DNA of 37,758 nt, from the NCBI GenBank assembly GCA_016937695.1, contig JAFGWC010000006.1, positions 1 to 37,758 of the forward strand, given 5' to 3'. The position numbers were made by a program, and so were the translations under genes. Below, piece by piece: positions 1-8,838 of the stretch. Each line of letters starts with the position of its first letter. The stretch's first letter is position 1. This stretch comes from Bacteroidales bacterium (GTDB lineage Bacteria; Bacteroidota; Bacteroidia; Bacteroidales; NBLH01). The notes beneath the pieces are model-generated. The model made no database searches. It was not told the DNA's origin and saw only the letters and a program-made list of their open reading frames with translations.

Positions 1-404
1 TGGTAAAAGATGCAATTTCAGTTGCTAAACTTATCAATATTGATGATTTTAAAACTGTTTTTGATAAAAAAGACGTGAAAATATTATTAGTAGATTGCCG
101 AGAAGAAAGTGAATATAAAGAAGGACATATACCTGGAGCTATTAATATTCCAAGAGGAATGTTAGAGTTTTCAAAAGATTTAACAGACAGAAGAGTTAAA
201 CTTTATGTTTATTCACAAACTACTGACAGAGCTGCATTAGCATATGAGTCTTTAAAAAAGCTTAAATTTTCAAAATTGTCAATTATAGAAGGCGGCTGGG
301 TTGCTTGGACAGATAAATATCCTGACTTAAAAGAAGAAGGAAGCGGAGACGCACATAAAGGAGAAGCAAAAGAAGAAGAATCAAGTGGCGGATGCGGCGG
401 TTGA
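1..404 (+). CDS. Rhodanese-like domain protein, 5' end cut by window edge
   Basis: The reading frame is open to the left edge (first full codon at base 3), so the start lies outside the window. The internal GTG at 75 falls inside the domain and is not a real start. The rhodanese fold is clear: LLVDCREESEYKEGHIPGAI near the front and a closing IIEGGWVAW. At the active-site loop the family has C-x4-x-R, but here the text is YVYSQTTDRA, with Ser where the catalytic Cys should be. The C-terminus is a charged Lys/Glu-rich linker ending SSGGCGG, which gives a single Cys on a flexible Gly tail. It opens a co-directional run with DsrE-like and TusA-like genes (39 bp and 82 bp gaps), which suggests sulfane-sulfur handling. 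Canonical rhodanese activity is unlikely; the tail Cys as a sulfur carrier is inference. Confidence 0.85.
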   Translation, partial: VKDAISVAKLINIDDFKTVFDKKDVKILLVDCREESEYKEGHIPGAINIPRGMLEFSKDLTDRRVKLYVYSQTTDRAALAYESLKKLKFSKLSIIEGGWVAWTDKYPDLKEEGSGDAHKGEAKEEESSGGCGG

Positions 405-443
405 TAAATAAAATCAAAATACACAACAAAAAAAAGTAAAATC

Positions 444-863
444 ATGGAAAATAAAAAATTATGCATGGCTCTTTTTTCCGGAAGCATCGATAAACTTACC
501 GGCGCAGGAGTGATATTAAGTGGCGCAGCTGCTGATGACATGGACATTGACATTTATGTATTGTTAATGGGCGCTCGTGCTTTTATTAAAGGCAACGAAA
601 AAAAAATTACAGAATTATCAGAATATCCTGAATTAAAAGATGAGTTTTTTGCATCACTTGATAAATTAAAAGTATCAACATGGGTCGATTTCTTTAAAAT
701 GGCAAAAGAGCTTACAAACGTAAAAATTCATATTTGCAGTTTAGCTGGTAAAATGTGGGGAGGCGAAAAAATGGAAGACTTTATAGATTTAACTGATGAT
801 ATTTGCGGAATTGGTGAATATATTACTTCTGCACAAGAAGCTGATGTTCATTTGTTTATATAA
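444..863 (+). CDS. DsrE-family sulfur-relay protein
   Basis: A 139-residue protein of the DsrE/DsrF/TusD type (small alpha/beta sulfur-transfer proteins). The first strand is followed by a Gly-rich stretch, the middle has DIDIYVLLMGARAF, and a Cys at residue 98 lies in KIHICSLAGKMWG, the place where DsrE proteins carry the persulfide-forming Cys. A second Cys is at residue 121 (DDICGIG). Length fits single-domain DsrE or DsrE2-like proteins. It sits between the rhodanese-like and TusA-like genes, the same gene set known to pass sulfur in Dsr and sHdr sulfur oxidisers. No membrane segment or signal peptide is seen. The partner is probably the downstream TusA-like protein. Family assignment is good; the exact subfamily is uncertain. 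Confidence 0.82.
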   Translation: MENKKLCMALFSGSIDKLTGAGVILSGAAADDMDIDIYVLLMGARAFIKGNEKKITELSEYPELKDEFFASLDKLKVSTWVDFFKMAKELTNVKIHICSLAGKMWGGEKMEDFIDLTDDICGIGEYITSAQEADVHLFI

Positions 864-945
864 AGTTAAAGTAATAAGCATAATAGATAATAAAAACGAT
901 TTTAATAAATCAAAATAAATTAATAACATTTAAAAAATAATAATC

Positions 946-1197
946 ATGACAACAGATGAATTACAAGGCTTAACAGTTAGTAAAAGTGTAGATGCGAGAG
1001 GAACAGCTTGTCCAGGTCCATTATTAGCAGCAAAAAAAGCAATTGGTGAAATAAAAACAGGTGAGATAATGGAAGTTCTTTCTGCTGATGAAGGTACAAA
1101 AAAAGACATCCCAAAATGGGCAGAAAAAAAAGGACATGAGTATTTAGGAACTGTTGAAGAGTCTGGTTTTTTTAAAATTTATATGAGAAAAGGATAA
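946..1197 (+). CDS. TusA-family sulfur carrier protein
   Basis: An 83-residue protein with the TusA signature CPGPLLAAKK; the sulfur-carrying Cys is residue 22 and is followed by the family's Pro-x-Pro turn. The rest fits the small beta-alpha-beta-alpha fold: GEIMEVLSADEGTKKDIPKWAEKKGH, then a final strand FFKIYMRK. TusA proteins carry a persulfide and hand it to other enzymes (tRNA thiolation, Moco synthesis, or Dsr/sHdr sulfur oxidation). The setting next to DsrE-like and Qmo/Hdr-like genes favours a dissimilatory or redox sulfur role over tRNA thiolation, but that is inference. It is the last gene before a 210 bp intergenic region with a long inverted repeat. Confidence 0.88.
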   Translation: MTTDELQGLTVSKSVDARGTACPGPLLAAKKAIGEIKTGEIMEVLSADEGTKKDIPKWAEKKGHEYLGTVEESGFFKIYMRKG

Positions 1198-1268
1198 ATT
1201 TTAAATTCGAAAAAATTAAAGTATTAATACTTGTTTTTAATTACTTTATTGAAAGATTCTTCAAAATC

Positions 1269-1330
1269 AAATTGTTTTATTGCTAAGTTGTTAATATGCA
1301 ATAATTTAGCAAAGGGCAATAAAACAATTT
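1269..1330 (+). repeat. Perfect 15-bp inverted repeat between tusA-like and mvhD-like genes
   Basis: Arms 1269-1283 (aaattgttttattgc) and 1316-1330 (gcaataaaacaattt) are exact reverse complements around a 32 nt loop. Inside the loop, gctaa (1282-1286) can also pair with ttagc (1306-1310). There is no T-run directly after the right arm, so it is not a textbook terminator. It separates the sulfur-carrier genes from the electron-transfer genes. A 14-bp palindrome (aagtattaatactt, 1219-1232) lies just upstream. It could be a terminator, an mRNA processing or stability hairpin, or a regulator site. Confidence 0.6.
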
Positions 1331-1407
1331 AGCATTACTTTTATCAAATAATTAAGAATAATTTAAATAAATTGGTCATAGACCTTAACTTTTTAATAAA
1401 AAGAAAA

Positions 1408-1818
1408 ATGGAGGATATTACAAAACCAAAGGAGGCCAAAATTTTGGTGTTTTCTACCGAAAAAATTTCAGATCCGGCAATAGATCTTGCAGGATTGCTA
1501 AAAATGCACTATCCTCCAAAAGTTTATACTATAAACGTTCCTTGTTCAAGTGCAGTAAAGCCTCGTTGGGTAATGCATGCTTTTGAGAAAGGTTTTGATG
1601 GTGTATTTATAGCCGCAGATGGAACAGACTGTTCTTATAGCGAAAAATGTACGGATAATACTTCAGCGCTGATTACTTTAATTCATACTCAAATGAAGGA
1701 AAAAGGAATGGATCCGGCCAAATTAAAAATGGCTGCAATTTGTTCTGTTTGTGCTGAACCTTTTGTAAAACACATGATTAATTTCGCTAGTTTTTTATCA
1801 AATATAAAATCTAATTAA
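1408..1818 (+). CDS. MvhD/FlpD-like (hydrogenase delta-subunit type) iron-sulfur protein, degenerate
   Basis: Resembles the MvhD/FlpD domain, which in Qmo systems is usually fused to the C-terminus of QmoB and passes electrons between HdrA-type flavoproteins and partners. Visible family marks are DLAGLLKMHYPPKVYTINVPCSS (Cys 46), the Ala-Phe-x-x-GFDGVFI segment, and TDCSYSEKC (Cys 75 and 81) in place of the usual GCxxGDCHY, then AAICSVCAEPF near the end. The N-terminal Cys pair of the family (normally right after the first strand) is absent, replaced by FSTEKISDPA, so the iron-sulfur centre is probably altered. ATG 1408 is chosen; an in-frame TTG at 1372 would add 12 residues that do not look like the domain. 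The stop lies one base before the next gene, so they are co-translated. About 137 residues. Confidence 0.7.
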   Translation: MEDITKPKEAKILVFSTEKISDPAIDLAGLLKMHYPPKVYTINVPCSSAVKPRWVMHAFEKGFDGVFIAADGTDCSYSEKCTDNTSALITLIHTQMKEKGMDPAKLKMAAICSVCAEPFVKHMINFASFLSNIKSN

Positions 1819-1819
1819 T

Positions 1820-3121
1820 ATGTCGGACCAAACAAATAATTACGATGTACTTGTTGTTGGTGGTGGTATTGCCGGTGAAGAAACTGCTCTAAATCTTGCT
1901 AACATTGGATATAAAATCATAATGGTGGAAAAAGATTTATCGATTGGTGGAAAAATGATTCACTTAAGTAAAGTTTTTCCAACGCTTGATTGCTCGGCTT
2001 GTATTACTACACCAAAAGTTTCTGAAACAGCAAGGCATCCAAATATAAGTATTTTTACCAACAGCGAGGTTGGTGAAATTGAAAAAATATCGGAAAATAA
2101 TTTTACTGCAATATTAACGCAGAAACCAAGATATGTAACCGAAGATTGTACAGGTTGTCAATTATGTGAAGAAGCTTGCCCGGTTAGTGTTGAAGATCAG
2201 TTTCAATACGAATTAGTTGGGCGAAAAGCTGCATATATTCCTTTTAGTATTGCTAACCCGCGAATTGCAGCAATTGATATAGAAAATTGTATTTTATGTG
2301 GTTTATGCGAAAAAGTATGTCCTGCTGATTGTATCGATTTTACTCAAGAAGCAATAAAAACTAAAATTAATATTAAATCTGTTGTAATGGCAACAGGATA
2401 TCAAATTTTTGATCCAACAATAATTACACGTTATGGTTTTGGTAAGTTTAAAAATGTTGTAACAGCAATGCAAATGGAACGACAATTAGTTCCAACAAGA
2501 CCTTTCAATGCAGTTTTAAGACCAAAAGATGGCAAGATGCCTGATAATATTGCATATGTTTTATGTACAGGATCTAGAGATGATACTGTAGGTAATCCAA
2601 TATGCTCACAAGTATGTTGTATGTATTCTACAAAGCAAGCACAATTGTTAATGGGTGCACTTCCAATGGCTGATGTTACTATTTATTATATACATGTAAG
2701 AGCTTTTGGTAAAGGTTTCTGCGAGTTTTATAATCAAACAGTAGGAATGGGAGTTGAGTATATAAAAGGGAAAATTGGTAAAATTGATGAAGCAGAAAAT
2801 GGAGATTTAATTGTCAGATATGAAGATATTGAATCCGGTAAAGTAAAAGAAGCAAAACATGACCTTGTTGTTCTTGCAACCGGAATTTTAGCTAATAGAG
2901 ATTATCAATCAATGTTTAAAAATATTGTGCTAGAACCTGATAAATTCAATTATGTTAAGCAAGTAAATGATTTATCTAGTCCTTCCAAAACAAGTATTGG
3001 AGGTGTTTTTGTTGCCGGAACAGCATCCGGACCAATGGATATACCTGATTCAATTTTGTCGGCAGGTGCAGCATCAGCAGAAACAGCAAGTTATTTAAGG
3101 AGGGCTTACAATGAAAAATAA
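1820..3121 (+). CDS. QmoA-like / HdrA-like FAD iron-sulfur oxidoreductase
   Basis: A 433-residue HdrA-family flavoprotein. The dinucleotide-binding GGGIAG is at residues 14-19, followed by VEKDLSIGGKM. LDCSACITTPK (Cys 58 and 61) is the HdrA signature. Two complete ferredoxin-type motifs follow: CTGCQLCEEACP (Cys 110, 113, 116, 120) and CILCGLCEKVCP (Cys 157, 160, 163, 167). Then come VLCTGSR and ICSQVCC, the conserved HdrA Cys region, and a closing FAD segment with GVFVAGTASGPMDIPDS. It lacks the HdrA N-terminal domain, which the next gene has, so this is the short QmoA-type partner. By family it should be a cytoplasmic subunit passing electrons via FAD and [4Fe-4S] clusters. The gene overlaps the next one by 11 bp. 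Confidence 0.85.
   Translation: MSDQTNNYDVLVVGGGIAGEETALNLANIGYKIIMVEKDLSIGGKMIHLSKVFPTLDCSACITTPKVSETARHPNISIFTNSEVGEIEKISENNFTAILTQKPRYVTEDCTGCQLCEEACPVSVEDQFQYELVGRKAAYIPFSIANPRIAAIDIENCILCGLCEKVCPADCIDFTQEAIKTKINIKSVVMATGYQIFDPTIITRYGFGKFKNVVTAMQMERQLVPTRPFNAVLRPKDGKMPDNIAYVLCTGSRDDTVGNPICSQVCCMYSTKQAQLLMGALPMADVTIYYIHVRAFGKGFCEFYNQTVGMGVEYIKGKIGKIDEAENGDLIVRYEDIESGKVKEAKHDLVVLATGILANRDYQSMFKNIVLEPDKFNYVKQVNDLSSPSKTSIGGVFVAGTASGPMDIPDSILSAGAASAETASYLRRAYNEK
3097..3104 (+). promoter_or_regulatory. Strong Shine-Dalgarno inside the end of the qmoA-like gene
   Basis: The run aaggaggg ends 6 bases before ATG 3111 and lies within the coding end of the upstream gene. It fixes the start of the QmoB-like protein and should couple its translation to the QmoA-like protein. 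Most other starts in this window have only A/T-rich leaders, as is usual in Bacteroidota, so this site stands out. Confidence 0.75.
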
Positions 3122-5042
3122 AATTGGAGTTTATATTTGCCAATGTGGCTCAAACATCTCAGATTATGTTGATGTTGAAAAAGTAAAAGAAGCTGTAATG
3201 GCAGAAGATGTTGTATTACTTTCAAAAACAACAATGTTTGCTTGCGCAGATTCTACTCAAAAAGAAATGGCAAGTGATATAAAGGAACAAAATCTTGATG
3301 GTCTAGTTGTTGCTTCTTGTTCGCCAAAGTTACATCTTTATACATTTAGAAATGTTGCAATAAGAGCAGGATTAAATCCATATAATTATGTTCAGGTAAA
3401 TATTCGAGAACAATGTTCATGGGCACATTCTGATAAACCAAAAGATGCAACTGAAAAAGCCATTAAACTTGTTTTAGCAGGTATTCATAGAGCAAAACAC
3501 TCAGTTGCTTTAAAAAAGCAAAAAATTTCATCAGAAAATACAGTTATTGTTGTAGGTGCCGGTATTGCCGGAATGCGATCATCAATTGAGTTAGCAAATA
3601 TGGGTTCTCAAGTCTATTTGATTGAAAGAGAGCATTTTGTGGGTGGCAGAACATCTCAATGGAATGAGCTTTTTACAACAGGTGAAACTGGAAGGGATGT
3701 GATTTCTGAATTATATAAACAGATAAAGTCAAATAGTAATATTACTCTATTTACAGGTGCAGAAGTAGTATCTAAATCAGGGAGTGTTGGAAATTTTGAA
3801 ATACAAGTAAAAATAACACCTCGTTATATTAAGCCCGATTGTGAGCTTGATATGGAAAAATTCGAAAAAGTTCTCGAAGTTTGTCCGATAGAAGTGGAAG
3901 ATGATTTTAATTTTGGTTTGAATAAAAGAAAAGCAATTTATAAAAATTATCCTAGTGAGTTTCCTGAAATACCTGCTATTGATGATAAAACTTGTACCAG
4001 ATGTGGAGAATGCGTTAAATTATGTCCTGAAATTGATTTTGAGCAAAAAGTTGAGACTTTAAATTTAATTGCTGGTGCAATTCTTTTAACCACAGGATTT
4101 GATCCTTATGAGCCAAAAGAAGGAGAGTTTGGATATAAAACTGTAGATTCGGTTATTACACTTCAGCAAATGAAGCGATTAATTGAATTAAATAATAAAG
4201 AGCTTATTTATAATGGCAAGAAAATCAGTAAAATAGGATATATTTATTGTGTAGGAAGCAGACAATCTGATGGCGAAAATAAATATTGCTCGAGATATTG
4301 TTGTACTTCTGCAATTCACACAGGAATAATTACCAAAGAAAAGTATAAAAACATTCAGAATTTTCATTTTAATCGTGGAATAAGAACTTACGGAAAACAA
4401 GAGCTTTTATATCATGAAGCATCTGAAAGCGGCGATGTCTTTCTTCAGTTTTTTGATGATACTACACCAAGTATAACAATGAATGGGAAAGGTCCAAAAG
4501 TTATAATTGAGGATTTTTTAACTAAAGGTAAAGAAATTGAAGTTGACCTTGATTTATTGGTATTGGTTACAGGAATGGTTCCAAGAAAAGAAAGAAGAAT
4601 CTCTGATATATTGAAAGTTCCTATTGGAAGAGATAAGTTTTATAATGAAATTCATCCGAAACTTAGACCAGTTGAAACTGTTATTGATGGTGTTCATATT
4701 GCAGGTGCATGCCAATCGCCAAAAAATATTACTGAATCTGTAAAATCTGCATTAGCAGCAGCAGCAAAAGCAAATTCATTAATCAGTAAAGGTGAAATTG
4801 AGTTAGAACCTACTCTTGCAATTATTGATAAATCAAAATGTAAATCATCAGGCGATTGTATAAAAATTTGTCCGTACGATGCAATTAGAACTGTTGAGCA
4901 TGATGGTAAAACAGTTTCGGAAGTCAACAATTCAAGTTGTAAAGGCTGTGGTATGTGTATTCCTGTTTGTCCTGAAAATGCTATTCAATTAATTGGTTAT
5001 ACTGATATTGAAATTGAAAGCATGATTGAAGCGCTTATTTAA
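3111..5042 (+). CDS. QmoB-like / full-length HdrA-type flavin iron-sulfur protein
   Basis: A 643-residue HdrA-family protein. The N-terminal HdrA domain shows GVYICQCGSNI (Cys 10 and 12), VVASCSPKLH and NIREQCSWAH. The FAD fold follows with VVGAGIAGMR near residue 150 and an inserted ferredoxin region with one full motif, CTRCGECVKLCP (Cys 295, 298, 301, 305). The cluster that usually precedes it has decayed to DCELDME...EVCP. The HdrA Cys motif YCSRYCC is at 393-398. The C-terminus has two ferredoxin motifs: CKSSGDCIKICP, where the second Cys is replaced by Ser 580, and the complete CKGCGMCIPVCP (Cys 610, 613, 616, 620). QmoB normally ends with an MvhD domain; here that domain is a separate gene upstream. 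Likely forms a complex with the QmoA-, QmoC- and MvhD-like proteins. Confidence 0.85.
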   Translation: MKNKIGVYICQCGSNISDYVDVEKVKEAVMAEDVVLLSKTTMFACADSTQKEMASDIKEQNLDGLVVASCSPKLHLYTFRNVAIRAGLNPYNYVQVNIREQCSWAHSDKPKDATEKAIKLVLAGIHRAKHSVALKKQKISSENTVIVVGAGIAGMRSSIELANMGSQVYLIEREHFVGGRTSQWNELFTTGETGRDVISELYKQIKSNSNITLFTGAEVVSKSGSVGNFEIQVKITPRYIKPDCELDMEKFEKVLEVCPIEVEDDFNFGLNKRKAIYKNYPSEFPEIPAIDDKTCTRCGECVKLCPEIDFEQKVETLNLIAGAILLTTGFDPYEPKEGEFGYKTVDSVITLQQMKRLIELNNKELIYNGKKISKIGYIYCVGSRQSDGENKYCSRYCCTSAIHTGIITKEKYKNIQNFHFNRGIRTYGKQELLYHEASESGDVFLQFFDDTTPSITMNGKGPKVIIEDFLTKGKEIEVDLDLLVLVTGMVPRKERRISDILKVPIGRDKFYNEIHPKLRPVETVIDGVHIAGACQSPKNITESVKSALAAAAKANSLISKGEIELEPTLAIIDKSKCKSSGDCIKICPYDAIRTVEHDGKTVSEVNNSSCKGCGMCIPVCPENAIQLIGYTDIEIESMIEALI

Positions 5043-5050
5043 AATTAGTA

Positions 5051-5157
5051 AATTAGTGTATTGGTTTATTAGTCATTGGTCATTGGTCATTAAAATACAC
5101 TAATTACTAATATACTAATTATCAATGCACTAATTACTAATAGACCAATGACTAATA
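5051..5157 (+). repeat. Interleaved inverted and direct repeats between qmoB-like and wHTH genes
   Basis: Two perfect inverted pairs interlock: 5051-5062 with 5094-5105 (12 bp) and 5067-5081 with 5143-5157 (15 bp). A direct repeat cactaattactaata occurs at 5098-5112 and 5128-5142 (30 bp apart), and a 7-bp tandem attggtc lies at 5075-5091. The repeats are variants of attagt/actaat words, so slippage-driven growth is likely. The block lies inside an apparent operon, so it may also act as an mRNA structure separating the large flavoprotein genes from the membrane subunit. Confidence 0.6.
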
Positions 5158-5173
5158 TACTAAATAAAAATAT

Positions 5174-5452
5174 ATGAAAACAAGTAAAACAATCGATCAT
5201 ATAAAAAAAATAAGGACGGTTTCGGAAGAAGTTAAAGCAAAAAGAAAAGAGTTTAACACAATAAAAAGAACATTGTTGAAAGCTCTAGAATCAGGTCCAA
5301 AATCTATTCCTCAGTTAGCTGAAGAAGTTGAATTGCCAATTGATGTTATAACATTTAATATAATGACATTAAGGAAATACGGCGATGTTGAAACCGGCGA
5401 GATTGATGATTCAGACGAATATTTTTCCTATCAATTAAAACAAAAAAAATAG
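5174..5452 (+). CDS. Small winged-helix-like protein in the Qmo/Hdr operon
   Basis: A 92-residue, Lys-rich protein. Residues about 25-75 read as a winged helix: RTLLKALESGPKSIPQLAEE, then a recognition-helix-like stretch DVITFNIMTLRKYGDVETGE, and a short wing. No other domain, no Cys, no membrane segment. It lies 4 bp ahead of the QmoC-like gene and is surely co-transcribed with it. It could be a local DNA-binding regulator or a protein-protein adapter in the complex; the sequence does not decide. No confident family name can be given. Confidence 0.7.
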   Translation: MKTSKTIDHIKKIRTVSEEVKAKRKEFNTIKRTLLKALESGPKSIPQLAEEVELPIDVITFNIMTLRKYGDVETGEIDDSDEYFSYQLKQKK

Positions 5453-5456
5453 TAAA

Positions 5457-6515
5457 ATGGCAAATATAAATCCAGATTTCGCAATTGAACTAAAAAAATA
5501 TGGTTCTGTAAACTTTAACGCATGTTATAATTGCGGAACTTGTACAGCAGTTTGTTCTTTGTCTACCGAAGAAGATTCATTTCCTCGTGAAATGGTGAGA
5601 TACAGTGTTTTGGGACTTGAAGATGAAATACAAGCTTCGTTAAAACCATGGCTGTGTTATTATTGCGGCGAGTGTAGCGAATCTTGTCCAAGAACTGCTA
5701 ATCCGGGCGAATTAATGATGGCTCTAAGACGTTATCTTACGGCTAAATATGATTGGACAGGACTTTCCGGATTGTTGTATAAGTCGCTGCCTATGAGTAT
5801 AATAGCTTTTATTGTTACAGCAATTGCAGTAATTTATTATAGCTTTTATGAAAGCTTTAATGTTGAAAAAATAATGCATTTTGGTCATTTATTTGAAATG
5901 ATTTCAATTGCAGCTGTTTTTTCAATTATTCTTGTGCCAAATATAATACGCATGTGGTGGATGACTGTTTTGAAACAAAAAGCTAAAGTTCCTTTTACTG
6001 CATACTTTAAAAGTATTTGGGATCTGATTGTACACATGTTTACCCAAAAACGTGCTCGTGATTGCGATGACAATGAATTTCGTTGGCTTGAGCATCTTGT
6101 ACTAGTAATTGGATATCTAAGTTTATTATTTACAACAGTTGTTTTGGATTGGTTTGGAACAGATAATTTATTTATTATAATTTTAGGATACATCGAAAGT
6201 GCAATAGTATTTATTGTTACAGTTGATTTTGTTTCAAGTCGTATAAAACAGAAAAAGGAAATTGCCAAATTTTCGCAACCATCTGACTGGTTTTTTGTTA
6301 TTTGGTTATTTCTTTTAGGATTTACGGCATTTGTAGTAAGAGTTTTTATCGATTTGAATTTAATTGAAACAAACCTTTGGATGTATTTAATTCATTTAAC
6401 AGTACTTGTACAATGGGCTTTATTAATTGTTCCTTTCGGTAAATGGACACATTTCTTATATCGTTCTTTTGCAATGTATTTTGATAAATTATTAAAAGAA
6501 CCTGTAAAGGCGTAA
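5457..6515 (+). CDS. QmoC-like membrane subunit (HdrC ferredoxin domain plus cytochrome b domain)
   Basis: 352 residues in two parts. The N-terminal HdrC-type domain has CYNCGTCTAVC (Cys 23, 26, 29, 33) and CYYCGECSESCP (Cys 67, 70, 73, 77), two [4Fe-4S] sites. From about residue 105 there are five or six membrane helices of the HdrE/NarI cytochrome b type, with His residues at helix positions suitable for heme (MHFGHLFEM, LEHLVLVIG, LIHLTVLVQW, KWTHFLYR). This two-part layout is that of QmoC, which links cytoplasmic electron carriers to menaquinone. It is the last gene of the run and is followed directly by a strong terminator, which marks the 3' end of the operon. Confidence 0.87.
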   Translation: MANINPDFAIELKKYGSVNFNACYNCGTCTAVCSLSTEEDSFPREMVRYSVLGLEDEIQASLKPWLCYYCGECSESCPRTANPGELMMALRRYLTAKYDWTGLSGLLYKSLPMSIIAFIVTAIAVIYYSFYESFNVEKIMHFGHLFEMISIAAVFSIILVPNIIRMWWMTVLKQKAKVPFTAYFKSIWDLIVHMFTQKRARDCDDNEFRWLEHLVLVIGYLSLLFTTVVLDWFGTDNLFIIILGYIESAIVFIVTVDFVSSRIKQKKEIAKFSQPSDWFFVIWLFLLGFTAFVVRVFIDLNLIETNLWMYLIHLTVLVQWALLIVPFGKWTHFLYRSFAMYFDKLLKEPVKA

Positions 6516-6529
6516 AGCAAATTTTATTA

Positions 6530-6563
6530 AAAAAACACGATAGAATTTTCTGTCGTGTTTTTT
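6530..6563 (+). terminator. Rho-independent terminator (bidirectional)
   Basis: Arms 6530-6545 and 6548-6563 pair over 16 bp with a single G-T pair (aaaaaacacgatagaa against ttctgtcgtgtttttt); the A/T flanks give a U-tract in both directions. It sits between the convergent QmoC-like and MoxR genes. Confidence 0.85.
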
Positions 6564-6597
6564 TGTTTCTCAACTTTAATTTTAAAAGAAAATTTAT

Positions 6598-7575
6598 CTA
6601 TCTCGGAATTTCAACACTCTCAATTATTTGTCTTATAACTTTCTGAGTACTAATGCCTTCTATTTCTTTTTCAGGAGTTAAAACTATTCTATGATTTAAA
6701 ACAGGATAAACCATTTCTTTAATATCTTCAGGTTTTACAAAATCTCGTCCATTAATAGCAGCATAAGCTTTTGAACTGTTTAATATTGCAATTGAAGCTC
6801 TTGGAGATGCGCCTAAAAATAATGAATTATTATTTCTTGTTTTAATTACAATTTCAGCAATATATTTAATCAAGTTTTCTTCAATATGAATATCTTTTAT
6901 TAGTTTTTGATATTCAATTATTTTTTCTTTTGATAATATTTTTTCAATATTATTTAATTCAGTTAAATCATTTTGATTATTGTGTTTATCAATTATTTTT
7001 ATTTCTTCTTCAAAAGAAGGATAATCAATTTCTATTTTAAAAATAAATCTATCTAACTGTGCCTCAGGAAGTTTGTAAGTTCCTTCTTGTTCAATTGGGT
7101 TTTGAGTTGCAAAAACAATAAAAGGAGCATTCATTATGTAAGTATTTCCATCAACAGTTATTTGACGTTCTTCCATAACTTCAAACAATGCAGATTGTGT
7201 TTTTGCCGGCGAACGATTTATTTCATCAATTAAAAGAATGTTAGTAAAAACAGGTCCCTTTTTAAATTCAAATTCAGAATTTTTAATATTAAAGATAGAT
7301 GTTCCTAAAATATCAGAAGGCATTAAATCAGGTGTAAACTGAACTCTAGAAAATTCAGAATCAATTGTTTTTGCAGTAAGTTTAGCTGCTAATGTTTTTG
7401 CAATTCCCGGAACGCCTTCTAAAAGTACATGCCCATTTGAAAGTATTGCAACTAACATATAATCAATCATTTTTTCCTGACCAACTATAACTTTCTCAAT
7501 TTCAGCTTTTAATAAGTCTATAGAGCTTTTTAAATCATCTAAATTTATTCTATTTACAAATATTTTTTCTTCCAT
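6598..7575 (-). CDS. MoxR-family AAA+ ATPase
   Basis: A 325-residue AAA+ protein of the MoxR/RavA group. Walker A is GVPGIAKT, Walker B is LLIDEINRS followed by the MoxR-typical PAKTQSALFEVMEER, sensor 1 is FATQNPIEQEGTY, and LPEAQLDRF and GASPRASIAIL are also family marks. MoxR proteins are chaperone-like ATPases that usually work with a neighbouring vWA or DUF58 protein to mature metal enzymes or cell-surface systems. No such partner is next to it: downstream is the terminator of the Qmo operon and upstream is a divergent MoeB-like gene. The partner may lie elsewhere. Confidence 0.9.
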   Translation of the reverse strand: MEEKIFVNRINLDDLKSSIDLLKAEIEKVIVGQEKMIDYMLVAILSNGHVLLEGVPGIAKTLAAKLTAKTIDSEFSRVQFTPDLMPSDILGTSIFNIKNSEFEFKKGPVFTNILLIDEINRSPAKTQSALFEVMEERQITVDGNTYIMNAPFIVFATQNPIEQEGTYKLPEAQLDRFIFKIEIDYPSFEEEIKIIDKHNNQNDLTELNNIEKILSKEKIIEYQKLIKDIHIEENLIKYIAEIVIKTRNNNSLFLGASPRASIAILNSSKAYAAINGRDFVKPEDIKEMVYPVLNHRIVLTPEKEIEGISTQKVIRQIIESVEIPR

Positions 7576-7714: not shown

Positions 7715-7722
7715 TAACTTTG
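7715..7722 (+). promoter_or_regulatory. Bacteroidota-type -7 promoter box (TAACTTTG)
   Basis: Matches TAnnTTTG and lies about 30 bp ahead of ATG 7753, so the transcript would have a leader of around 25 nt. No clear -33 TTG at the right distance. It overlaps the in-frame TTG at 7720, which argues against that codon as the start of the MoeB-like gene. Confidence 0.45.
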
Positions 7723-7752
7723 CAGGCTTTTTTGTTTAAAAAATACATAAAG

Positions 7753-8838
7753 ATGTTTTCTAAAAGCGAATTAAAAAGATATAACAGACATATTATTTTA
7801 CCTGAAATTGGTTTAGAAGGCCAAGATAAACTTAAATCGGCAAAAGTATTAGTTGTTGGTGCCGGTGGTTTAGGATGTCCTGCTTTGCAATACATTGCAG
7901 CTGCAGGAGTTGGTACAATTGGTGTTTGCGATTTTGATTTTGTTGATGAAAGTAATTTACAACGGCAAATTTTATTTGATACTAATGATATTGGAAAATC
8001 TAAAGCAAAAATTGCTGCTGAAAAACTTTCAAAACAAAATCAATTTGTTAAAATAAATACACATAATGTTAAATTAGACAAAGAAAATGTTTTAGAAATA
8101 TTTTCTGATTATGATATTATTGTTGATGGTTCAGATAATTTTCCAACGCGGTTTTTAGTCAGTGATGCCTGTGTAATATTAGGAAAACCATTGGTTTTTG
8201 GAGCTATTTATAAATTTGAAGGACAACTTTCTGTTTTTAATTATAAAAATGGTCCAACTTACAGATGTTTGGTTCCAGAAGAGCCTGAAAGTTCTGAAAT
8301 TTTGTCTTGTTCGCAGATAGGCGTAATTGGTGTTTTACCTGGTATAATTGGTTCTTATCAAGCAAACGAAGTAATAAAAATAATCACTGGAATTGGCGAA
8401 ATAATGAGTGGGAAAATATTATTGCTGGATACTTTAAATATGACTCATAATATTATTGAAATAAAAAGAAAAGAGAATCTAGCTAATTTATCAAATTTGG
8501 GAGAATATGGCGATTTTTGTGGAAATAATTATTCAAATGTTAAACAAATAACTTCTGCAGAATTAAAGCAAATGCTTGATAATAAGAAAGATGTGCTGAT
8601 TGTTGATATTAGAGAATCAGAAGCTTTTAATCAATATCATATAAAAAGTGTGAATATTTCTATTGATAAATTATTAAATAATGCTGATAATTTGCCAATA
8701 GATAAACCAGTAATTTTAATTTGTGAAAATGGAAATAATAGCATGGCAGTAATTGAAAATTTTGAAAAATTATATGATTTTAAAAATTTATTTAATTTAA
8801 AAGATGGAATACAATCTTGGTTAAAAAATAATTATTAA
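7753..8838 (+). CDS. MoeB/ThiF-type adenylyltransferase with C-terminal rhodanese domain
   Basis: 361 residues from ATG 7753. Residues 1-250 are an E1-like adenylating domain: RYNRHIILPEIGLEGQ, the nucleotide loop VVGAGGLGCP, and DFDFVDESNLQRQILF. SCSQIGVIGVLPGIIGSYQA closes the domain. The C-terminal 100 residues are a rhodanese domain with DIRESEAFNQYHIKSVNI and the active Cys in LICENGNNS. Such fusions adenylate the C-terminal Gly of ThiS- or MoaD-like sulfur carriers and help load sulfur, serving thiamin or molybdopterin synthesis. The zinc-binding CxxC pairs of MoeB are missing (TYRC instead of CYRC). No ThiS/MoaD gene is adjacent, so its true client is unknown. Confidence 0.85.
   Translation: MFSKSELKRYNRHIILPEIGLEGQDKLKSAKVLVVGAGGLGCPALQYIAAAGVGTIGVCDFDFVDESNLQRQILFDTNDIGKSKAKIAAEKLSKQNQFVKINTHNVKLDKENVLEIFSDYDIIVDGSDNFPTRFLVSDACVILGKPLVFGAIYKFEGQLSVFNYKNGPTYRCLVPEEPESSEILSCSQIGVIGVLPGIIGSYQANEVIKIITGIGEIMSGKILLLDTLNMTHNIIEIKRKENLANLSNLGEYGDFCGNNYSNVKQITSAELKQMLDNKKDVLIVDIRESEAFNQYHIKSVNISIDKLLNNADNLPIDKPVILICENGNNSMAVIENFEKLYDFKNLFNLKDGIQSWLKNNY

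Follow-up and report, generated by a model that had tools for sequence, protein, structure and literature searches.

With what does a membrane complex of the Qmo/Hdr type exchange electrons when the genes beside it encode sulfur carriers? The question is raised by the left end of the window analysed here, a stretch of 37,758 nucleotides from a Bacteroidales genome (C43:1-37758; genome 3.95 Mb, 159 contigs, 99.6% complete). Within its first 6.5 kb lie eight plus-strand genes, which encode a rhodanese, DsrE, TusA, MvhD, a QmoA-like protein, a QmoB/HdrA-like protein, a protein of 92 amino acids (aa) and a QmoC-like protein. This cluster is a real and widespread branch of the Qmo/HdrA family that is tied to sulfur carriers. 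It is undescribed as far as a literature search of titles and the starts of abstracts shows, subscription journals being mostly outside its coverage. On sequence grounds, roughly even confidence is placed in the reading that this TusA/DsrE-served branch exchanges electrons between carrier-bound sulfane sulfur and menaquinone, the reductive direction being the likelier.

The near-invariant partners of this Apr-free Qmo branch, namely DsrE, TusA, a rebuilt MvhD and a winged-helix (wH) protein, point to a testable class of substrate. The cluster would also allow a direct test of where machines of the Qmo/Hdr type meet protein-bound sulfur without HdrB, and it suggests an unrecognised sulfur-based lifestyle in anaerobic bacteria. 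Should the complex prove to be a sulfane-sulfur reductase or oxidase, many Bacteroidales counted as simple fermenters would join the sulfur cycle.

Conserved linkage of sulfur-carrier and Qmo-type genes

Because it is repeated in dozens of genomes, the gene order is more than a product of chance. Among 80 homologous loci (loci, genomes and contigs are denoted here by L, G and C numbers), mvhD and tusA precede qmoA wherever the flank suffices (65/65). The dsrE gene does so in 63 of these 65 loci, and in both exceptions, L074 and L082, it lies nearby on the other strand. Downstream of qmoA, the qmoB, wH and qmoC genes are present in all 52 loci with sufficient flank, and the exact order dsrE-tusA-mvhD-qmoA-qmoB-wH-qmoC is maintained in 43 of the 45 loci for which both flanks suffice. 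After clustering of qmoA at 90%, the counts are 53/53 for both tusA and mvhD, 52/53 for dsrE, and 44/44 for each of qmoB, wH and qmoC. Profiles for aprA, aprB and vhuA exceed the threshold of 60 bits in none of the 80 loci, other types of hydrogenase lying outside this search.

These loci derive from a scan of named genomes with a QmoA alignment, of which the best 80 of at least 588 relatives were used; the linkage counts refer to these and not to remoter relatives. The loci are labelled Bacteroidota (75), Chlorobi/Chlorobiota (2), Krumholzibacteria (2) and Aminicenantes (1). The window, L034-L043, L048 and L049 supplied the profiles of the core genes, and L045, L047, L050 and L051 those for vhuA and the apr genes; five of the 80 loci (L064, L077, L091, L106 and L123) are the same contigs as members of the profile-building set. 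Loci with too short a flank on the left (15/80) or on the right (28/80) were dropped from the respective counts.

Beyond these loci, a sample of 295 genomes of the order showed the MvhD family in at least 51, a count based on matches of 150 bits or more (the next best match has 74 bits, and the tally at E <= 1e-15 is 67). In all 30 of the loci fetched, of which 14 on the plus strand were counted by script and 16 on the minus strand were read from rows, tusA stands before mvhD and qmoA after it. The carriers among the 80 loci include a cultured organism, Prolixibacter denitrificans DSM 27267. Two distant genomes of the phylum (L141, L142) maintain the order tusA-mvhD-qmoA-qmoB-wH-qmoC, one of them with a DsrE-family gene after it. 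A winged-helix profile run against 296 genomes of the phylum returned four matches, namely the window's own genome, G098, G318 and G191, the last of which is without such a cluster.

Relatives of QmoC (E <= 1e-10) were found in 22 of 60 genomes, the window's own included, and the 20 stretches read are of three kinds. The window system is present in 14 genomes, a number that includes the window's own, G003 (where the contig shows no more of the cluster than qmoA to qmoC) and G058 (which has two such loci or stretches of it counted as two loci); apr-linked Qmo is found in G013, G020 and G058, and clusters linked to Vhu hydrogenase in G002, G028 and G058. Neither tusA nor dsrE is present in the three apr-linked and three Vhu-linked stretches. 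AprA over cut-off is likewise confined, among the 60 genomes, to G013, G020 and G058, although in G058 the over-cut-off AprA is encoded on a contig other than that of the apr-type stretch, which has no more than a fragment of aprA. Both G013 and G058 thus hold the window-type system together with a separate apr-type qmo stretch. In the window's own genome the best match to AprA has 20 bits against a cut-off of 642, and DsrA gives no match. HdrB, sought by its CCG domains, is not encoded in the core, and the CCG proteins of the genome are LdhH/LutA- and TfrB/TmcB-like, all below cut-off.

The initial annotation had proposed a distinct system without a visible HdrB catalytic subunit, and had named aprAB, sat and dsrAB beside the locus in the same genome, or inconsistent linkage among homologues, as findings that would speak against it. 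The genome has no AprA over cut-off and no match to DsrA, and linkage is near-total in the relatives examined; with the QmoA and QmoB trees below, this supports a distinct and conserved system.

Subunits of the complex and comparison with known systems

The flavoprotein subunits set the window system apart from its relatives. In a tree built without type II or methanogen HdrA references, the window-type QmoA proteins group together, as do the QmoB proteins, separate from the apr- and Vhu-types (support 100/99 and 100/100). Against the full HdrA2 model (NF040770, cut-off 1100 bits), QmoA scores 456 bits and QmoB 567 bits, as opposed to 323 and 326 bits, and 393 and 434 bits, for the respective proteins of two apr-linked pairs. 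QmoA keeps the HdrA-type C58/C61, whereas the motif is shifted in the apr-type. Nearly the whole of QmoB (residues 4-641 of 643) aligns to an HdrA of solved structure (5odc, 450 bits). Its residue 580 (4848-4850) is a cluster Cys in 77 of 78 aligned sequences; the window and L033 have Ser there and L034 has Ala, which perhaps creates a [3Fe-4S] site in the window's genus. The QmoA proteins of G030 and G018 are enlarged to 916 and 921 aa by an inserted GltD-like pyridine-nucleotide oxidoreductase domain at the ferredoxin region (L042 6812-9562, L048 3719-6484), which suggests NAD(P)H as a partner in these two genomes. In L043 (7578-8891; L064 is the same contig) qmoA reads as two adjacent open frames.

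In QmoC, both HdrC-type cysteine sets and histidines 213 and 332 are maintained in 69 of 69 sequences. Four histidines common to three apr-type QmoC proteins are missing, and its haem content may therefore differ. A plasmid origin for QmoC was rejected, as it stemmed from a single weak record with 21% coverage.

The most distinctive subunit is MvhD, a protein that normally holds a [2Fe-2S] cluster and passes electrons from hydrogenase to HdrA. The canonical CNWC cysteine pair is found in none of 79 members of the window family, in which C58, C87 and C93 are each invariant (79/79), as is a C124-x-x-C127 pair within an ICxxC motif (80/80). Compared with the MvhD proteins of two Vhu clusters and the C-termini of two apr-type QmoB proteins, C58 and C87 are kept while C93 and C124/C127 are new, neither Cys of the CxxC being present in the four sequences compared. 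The MvhD proteins of L141 and L142 retain just the CxxC of the five family cysteines, along with an N-terminal Cys of their own. Because the pair outlives the other cysteines and TusA is encoded adjacently, it is a promising candidate for a thiol or persulfide reaction; the Bacteroidales MvhD could instead hold a cluster with other ligands.

The carriers themselves have the expected cysteines, Cys22 of the TusA CPGP motif being invariant in 78 of 78 sequences and Cys98 of DsrE in 50 of 50 of the window DsrE type. Window DsrE has Gly at +8 from Cys98, and hence lacks the Cys-X7-Cys motif with the second cysteine of the DsrE3A group (PMC4175335).

Pfam and NCBIfam give no family match for the 92-aa protein, which had been called a winged-helix protein from its sequence. 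Its AlphaFold2 model agrees with that call (predicted local distance difference test score, pLDDT, 90.7), with SmtB as the best PDB match (Foldseek E 5e-4) and SqrR and BigR among the first ten. The window protein is free of cysteine and just 9 of 73 family members have any, which makes a persulfide sensor of the SqrR kind unlikely; its role may instead be structural, within the complex, or regulatory.

In general plan, two HdrA-type flavoproteins with a QmoC-type subunit, the system resembles the AprAB-linked QmoABC of type I, including the HdrC-type and membrane domains of QmoC and the link to quinone. It differs in that aprAB is missing, mvhD is a separate gene before qmoA in every locus with flank and not a fusion to QmoB, QmoA and QmoB fall in separate clades, and the tusA/dsrE linkage and winged-helix gene are added. 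Window QmoC reaches only 169 bits against the NF038018 (QmoC) cut-off of 300, compared with 360 for the apr-type protein of L051 from the same order. On the grounds of AprA, DsrA and clade, an identity with plain Qmo was thus rejected. With type II QmoAB(C), which is found with or without Apr/Dsr and whose function is left to experiments (PMC10504309), the system may share a QmoA that is nearer to HdrA than apr-type QmoA is, judged by the HdrA2 scores above. The comparison is by description: carrier linkage, the MvhD signature and the winged-helix gene are not mentioned in the part of PMC10504309 consulted, and its main text has no word beginning with Bacteroid.

With the Mvh/Vhu hydrogenase-HdrABC systems, including the Vhu-linked clusters of L045-L047, the window shares an MvhD beside HdrA-type subunits. 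This identity was rejected, given the lack of vhuA in the 80 loci and the differing MvhD cysteines, with CxxC in place of CNWC. In L045, L046 and L047 themselves, genes for a Vhu-type [NiFe] hydrogenase accompany QmoA-QmoC-QmoB-MvhD-like genes, as a hydrogen-linked complex of the Qmo type. In sHdr systems, too, TusA and DsrE adjoin HdrA-type genes, with tusA-dsrE beside hdrC1B1A-hyp-C2B2 and a lipoate-binding protein nearby; the core of the window instead has two HdrA-type subunits and a QmoC-type membrane subunit without HdrB1/B2, and for want of HdrB an sHdr identity was rejected for it. Separate clusters of HdrC-HdrB-HdrA-like genes with a membrane protein of 590-630 aa (L184, L187, L188, L189) occur in genomes with and without the window system.

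The probable island of the window also has yedE, tusA and dsrE in common with the YTD set (yedE-tusA-dsrE-chp1-3) of sulfur disproportionators, which in the available text of PMC12998232 is reported complete only from Desulfobacterota and Nitrospirota. Here these genes are split, with yedE and a second tusA (tusA2) on contig C69 and dsrE and tusA1 in the window, where they are joined to a Qmo-like complex instead; no chp gene was identified, though no search was aimed at them.

Sulfur supply, direction and rival explanations

Contig C69 very probably carries the upstream half of the cluster. Besides tusA2, it encodes a YedE/TsuA-like transporter of 404 aa (under every model cut-off), a Porin_O_P protein and several rhodaneses, one of lipoprotein type ending in GGCGG, a second of 325 aa and a tandem rhodanese, all divergent from two Crp-type regulator genes. 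The last gene of the contig, cut by its end, encodes a protein that starts with MRKKIIIYFSAIILIFLSACSSDMKKY, a lipoprotein signal with lipobox. Since a C69-type block continues directly into rhodanese-dsrE-tusA-mvhD-qmoA in L049, L043 and L035 (where yedE is truncated by the contig end), C69 and C43 very probably adjoin; no sequence overlap between them was found and they were left unjoined. A MoxR-type AAA gene (6598-7575, minus strand) borders the window side and a DUF58 gene (L053 7065-8411) the C69 side. Genes of these two kinds usually share one operon, and if the contigs adjoin, the sulfur island sits insertion-like inside a moxR-DUF58 operon.

The window rhodanese gene is cut short, as the window is the left end of its contig. 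Its complete homologues have a lipoprotein signal at the start and a GGCGG-type tail at the end; the window protein has Ser at the usual active-site Cys (VYSQTTDR) and a C-terminal tail ...SSGGCGG. The L034 homologue and others likewise carry Ser or another residue at this position and keep the tail Cys. Endings in GGCG or GGCGG are found in 18 of 1286 open frames picked in the 80 loci, all of them lipoprotein-type rhodaneses, and near-variants such as SGCGG in a few further frames. L053 (3116-3604) and related loci also encode lipoprotein-type rhodaneses with the GGCGG tail, some without the active-site Cys. A sulfur-carrying role of the tail Cys is a conjecture. In view of the lipoprotein signals of the homologues and of the protein at the end of C69, the window rhodanese is probably exported, and the role as cytoplasmic relay partner of TusA given to it in the initial annotation is probably wrong.

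From these genes we infer one complex and, with similar caution, its redox partner, direction, substrate and bifurcation. MvhD-QmoA-QmoB-wH-QmoC would constitute a menaquinone-linked membrane complex of flavin and iron-sulfur subunits whose partner would be sulfur held on TusA/DsrE, in place of the APS reductase of canonical Qmo or the hydrogenase of Mvh/Vhu-Hdr. In the window's genome, sulfane sulfur from polysulfide or thiosulfate would be taken up by way of the porin and the lipoprotein rhodaneses with GGCGG tails; the YedE-like protein would then bring it inwards for loading on TusA/DsrE. YeeE/YedE has been modelled as passing sulfur to TusA (PMC12142623). The rebuilt MvhD, through its invariant CxxC, would be the likeliest docking point of the carrier persulfide, with electrons moving between MvhD and menaquinone through both HdrA-type flavin subunits and QmoC. 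The net outcome would more likely be that carrier-bound sulfur is reduced to sulfide, which would offer fermentative anaerobes an electron sink; the drive may come from flavin-based confurcation, in which ferredoxin or NAD(P)H joins menaquinol. The fusions to an NAD(P)H domain in G030 and G018 fit such a combination at the HdrA-type flavins. A more specific version, which would be a new class of energy-conserving sulfur enzyme, is less likely: a confurcating TusA-persulfide:menaquinone oxidoreductase, fed by a GGCGG swinging-arm lipoprotein, in which a persulfide-attacking CxxC dithiol replaces the [2Fe-2S] cluster of MvhD, and which would amount to a cytoplasmic respiration of carrier-bound sulfur without HdrB, Dsr, Apr or a molybdenum reductase.

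Reduction is favoured by the import-like transporter, the lack of Dsr/Apr and of a haem-copper oxidase (COX1 gave no match in the genome) and a Phs/Psr-like locus. The import direction of YedE/TsuA-like transporters is presumed from TsuA. The locus, on contig C22 of the same genome (L149 4905-12520), encodes a PhsA/PsrA-like molybdoenzyme (472 bits for PhsA, below the cut-off of 694), an Fe-S subunit, an NrfD/PsrC-type subunit, a YedE half pair and three rhodaneses. The host looks like an anaerobe equipped for reduction of sulfane sulfur or thiosulfate. Several related metagenome-assembled genomes (isolate names beginning Zod) appear to come from a spring with much reductive sulfur metabolism (PMC9040765). 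Pontosulfidobacter, a published sulfur and thiosulfate reducer, belongs to Bacillota strains and was dropped from consideration.

A number of observations weigh against this reading. Nothing in the sequence fixes the direction. At potentials of about -270 mV for S0/HS- and about -74 mV for menaquinone, menaquinol is too weak a reductant for sulfane sulfur on its own, and a second, unseen donor of low potential is therefore required. Across the 60 relatives, COX1 is found in 7 of 14 genomes with the system and 23 of 46 without it, and YedE-type genes in 8 of 14 and 26 of 46 (Fisher p = 1 in both cases); accordingly, the arguments on direction rest on the window's own genome. Of the 80 loci, 10 have a yedE gene beside the core, two of these on the opposite strand; with just eight carrying it upstream on the same strand, the core can act without the import half. 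TusA is multifunctional and could be a shared supplier. The distribution is patchy, since within the window's genus the system was seen in four of seven genomes and QmoC had no match in G001 and G006, which are 92% and 97% complete. Finally, of 100 stretches, five contain an HdrB-type gene (L042, L043 with L064 as its duplicate, L118 and L122). A link to sHdr through the HdrB-HdrA-HdrC sets near L042 and L043 was dropped, given this low count and the presence of such sets in genomes without the window system (G014, G040, G048).

The same complex could run oxidatively, from sulfide or carrier persulfide to menaquinone and possibly with bifurcation to ferredoxin or NAD(P)+, to make sulfane sulfur or to feed detoxification, sulfur oxidation or disproportionation. 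This is a serious possibility, weighted at about half of the reductive reading. Electron flow from sulfide to menaquinone is downhill by the potentials above, and TusA-DsrE-rhodanese sets usually feed oxidation (sHdr, rDsr). In the sulfur oxidiser M. cuprina, hdr genes lie on either side of those for DsrE3A/TusA (PMC4175335), Qmo/Hdr has been proposed for sulfur oxidation in disproportionators (PMC4911364), and YedE, TusA and DsrE recall the YTD set (PMC12998232). Black Sea isolates that include Bacteroidota have a "heterodisulfide reductase system", which may be a window-type cluster and was read as possible sulfur oxidation, yet sulfide oxidation by these strains was not observed in culture (PMC11129491). 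The inward-pointing transporter type and the lack of COX1 also count against oxidation, as do a core without HdrB and a genome without AprA over cut-off or DsrA, other sulfite enzymes not having been searched for.

It is less probable that the module is type II Qmo-like with an unrelated redox partner, TusA and DsrE being co-expressed for thiolation of cofactors or tRNA, assimilation or sensing. The many roles of TusA would suit this explanation, as would the winged-helix protein in the cluster, the Crp regulators beside it and the occurrence of type II Qmo with and without Apr/Dsr and with no assigned function (PMC10504309). Against it stand the near-absolute linkage of tusA and mvhD to qmoA among the loci analysed and an MvhD cysteine set that is missing from the four apr- and Vhu-type sequences compared. 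Most improbable of all is a plain AprAB-linked Qmo with its partner genes elsewhere in the genome. The overall domain composition of QmoABC is the same, but the nearly complete genome has no AprA over cut-off, the clades differ, and G013 and G058 carry both kinds of locus.

Features of the window and neighbouring genes

Pfam and NCBIfam confirm the identities first given to the rhodanese, DsrE, TusA, MvhD, QmoA, QmoB/HdrA and QmoC, and the cluster does lie on one strand, closed by a strong terminator as had been described.

Table 1. Coordinates of the cluster in the window
Feature	Position	Strand	Evidence
Rhodanese-like, probable lipoprotein, 5' end cut by contig edge	3..404	+	PF00581 70.8 bits
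DsrE_2-family sulfur carrier	444..863	+	PF13686 33.8 bits; 2qs7 E 4.5e-16
TusA sulfur carrier	946..1197	+	PF01206 80.9 bits vs cut-off 28.6
MvhD-like subunit, rebuilt cysteines (CNWC lost, ICSVC gained)	1408..1818	+	FlpD/MvhD PF02662 93.7 bits
QmoA/HdrA-like flavoprotein, 4Fe-4S sites, HdrA-type C58/C61 motif	1820..3121	+	NF040770 456 bits
QmoB/HdrA-like flavoprotein, no fused MvhD domain, Ser580	3111..5042	+	NF040770 567 bits
Small winged-helix protein, conserved DDxDEYFxY tail	5174..5452	+	predicted structure
QmoC-like: HdrC-type domain (two 4Fe-4S sites) and membrane domain with conserved histidines	5457..6515	+	NF038018 169 bits
Intrinsic terminator, perhaps common to the convergent moxR gene	6528..6565	+	hairpin folding

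The open frame of mvhD begins at TTG 1372, and, judged by its homologues, the gene more likely starts at ATG 1408. The terminator hairpin, which is absent from the list of a simple terminator scan of the window, has 17 pairs with a U tract at its end and folds at -19.6 kcal/mol (z -5.95), a stability that none of 200 shuffled sequences equalled. Between qmoB and the winged-helix gene, positions 5043-5173 are AT-rich and by eye contain short repeated or inverted motifs. Just past moxR, at 7720-8838, the window encodes a ThiF/MoeB-like protein with a C-terminal rhodanese domain.

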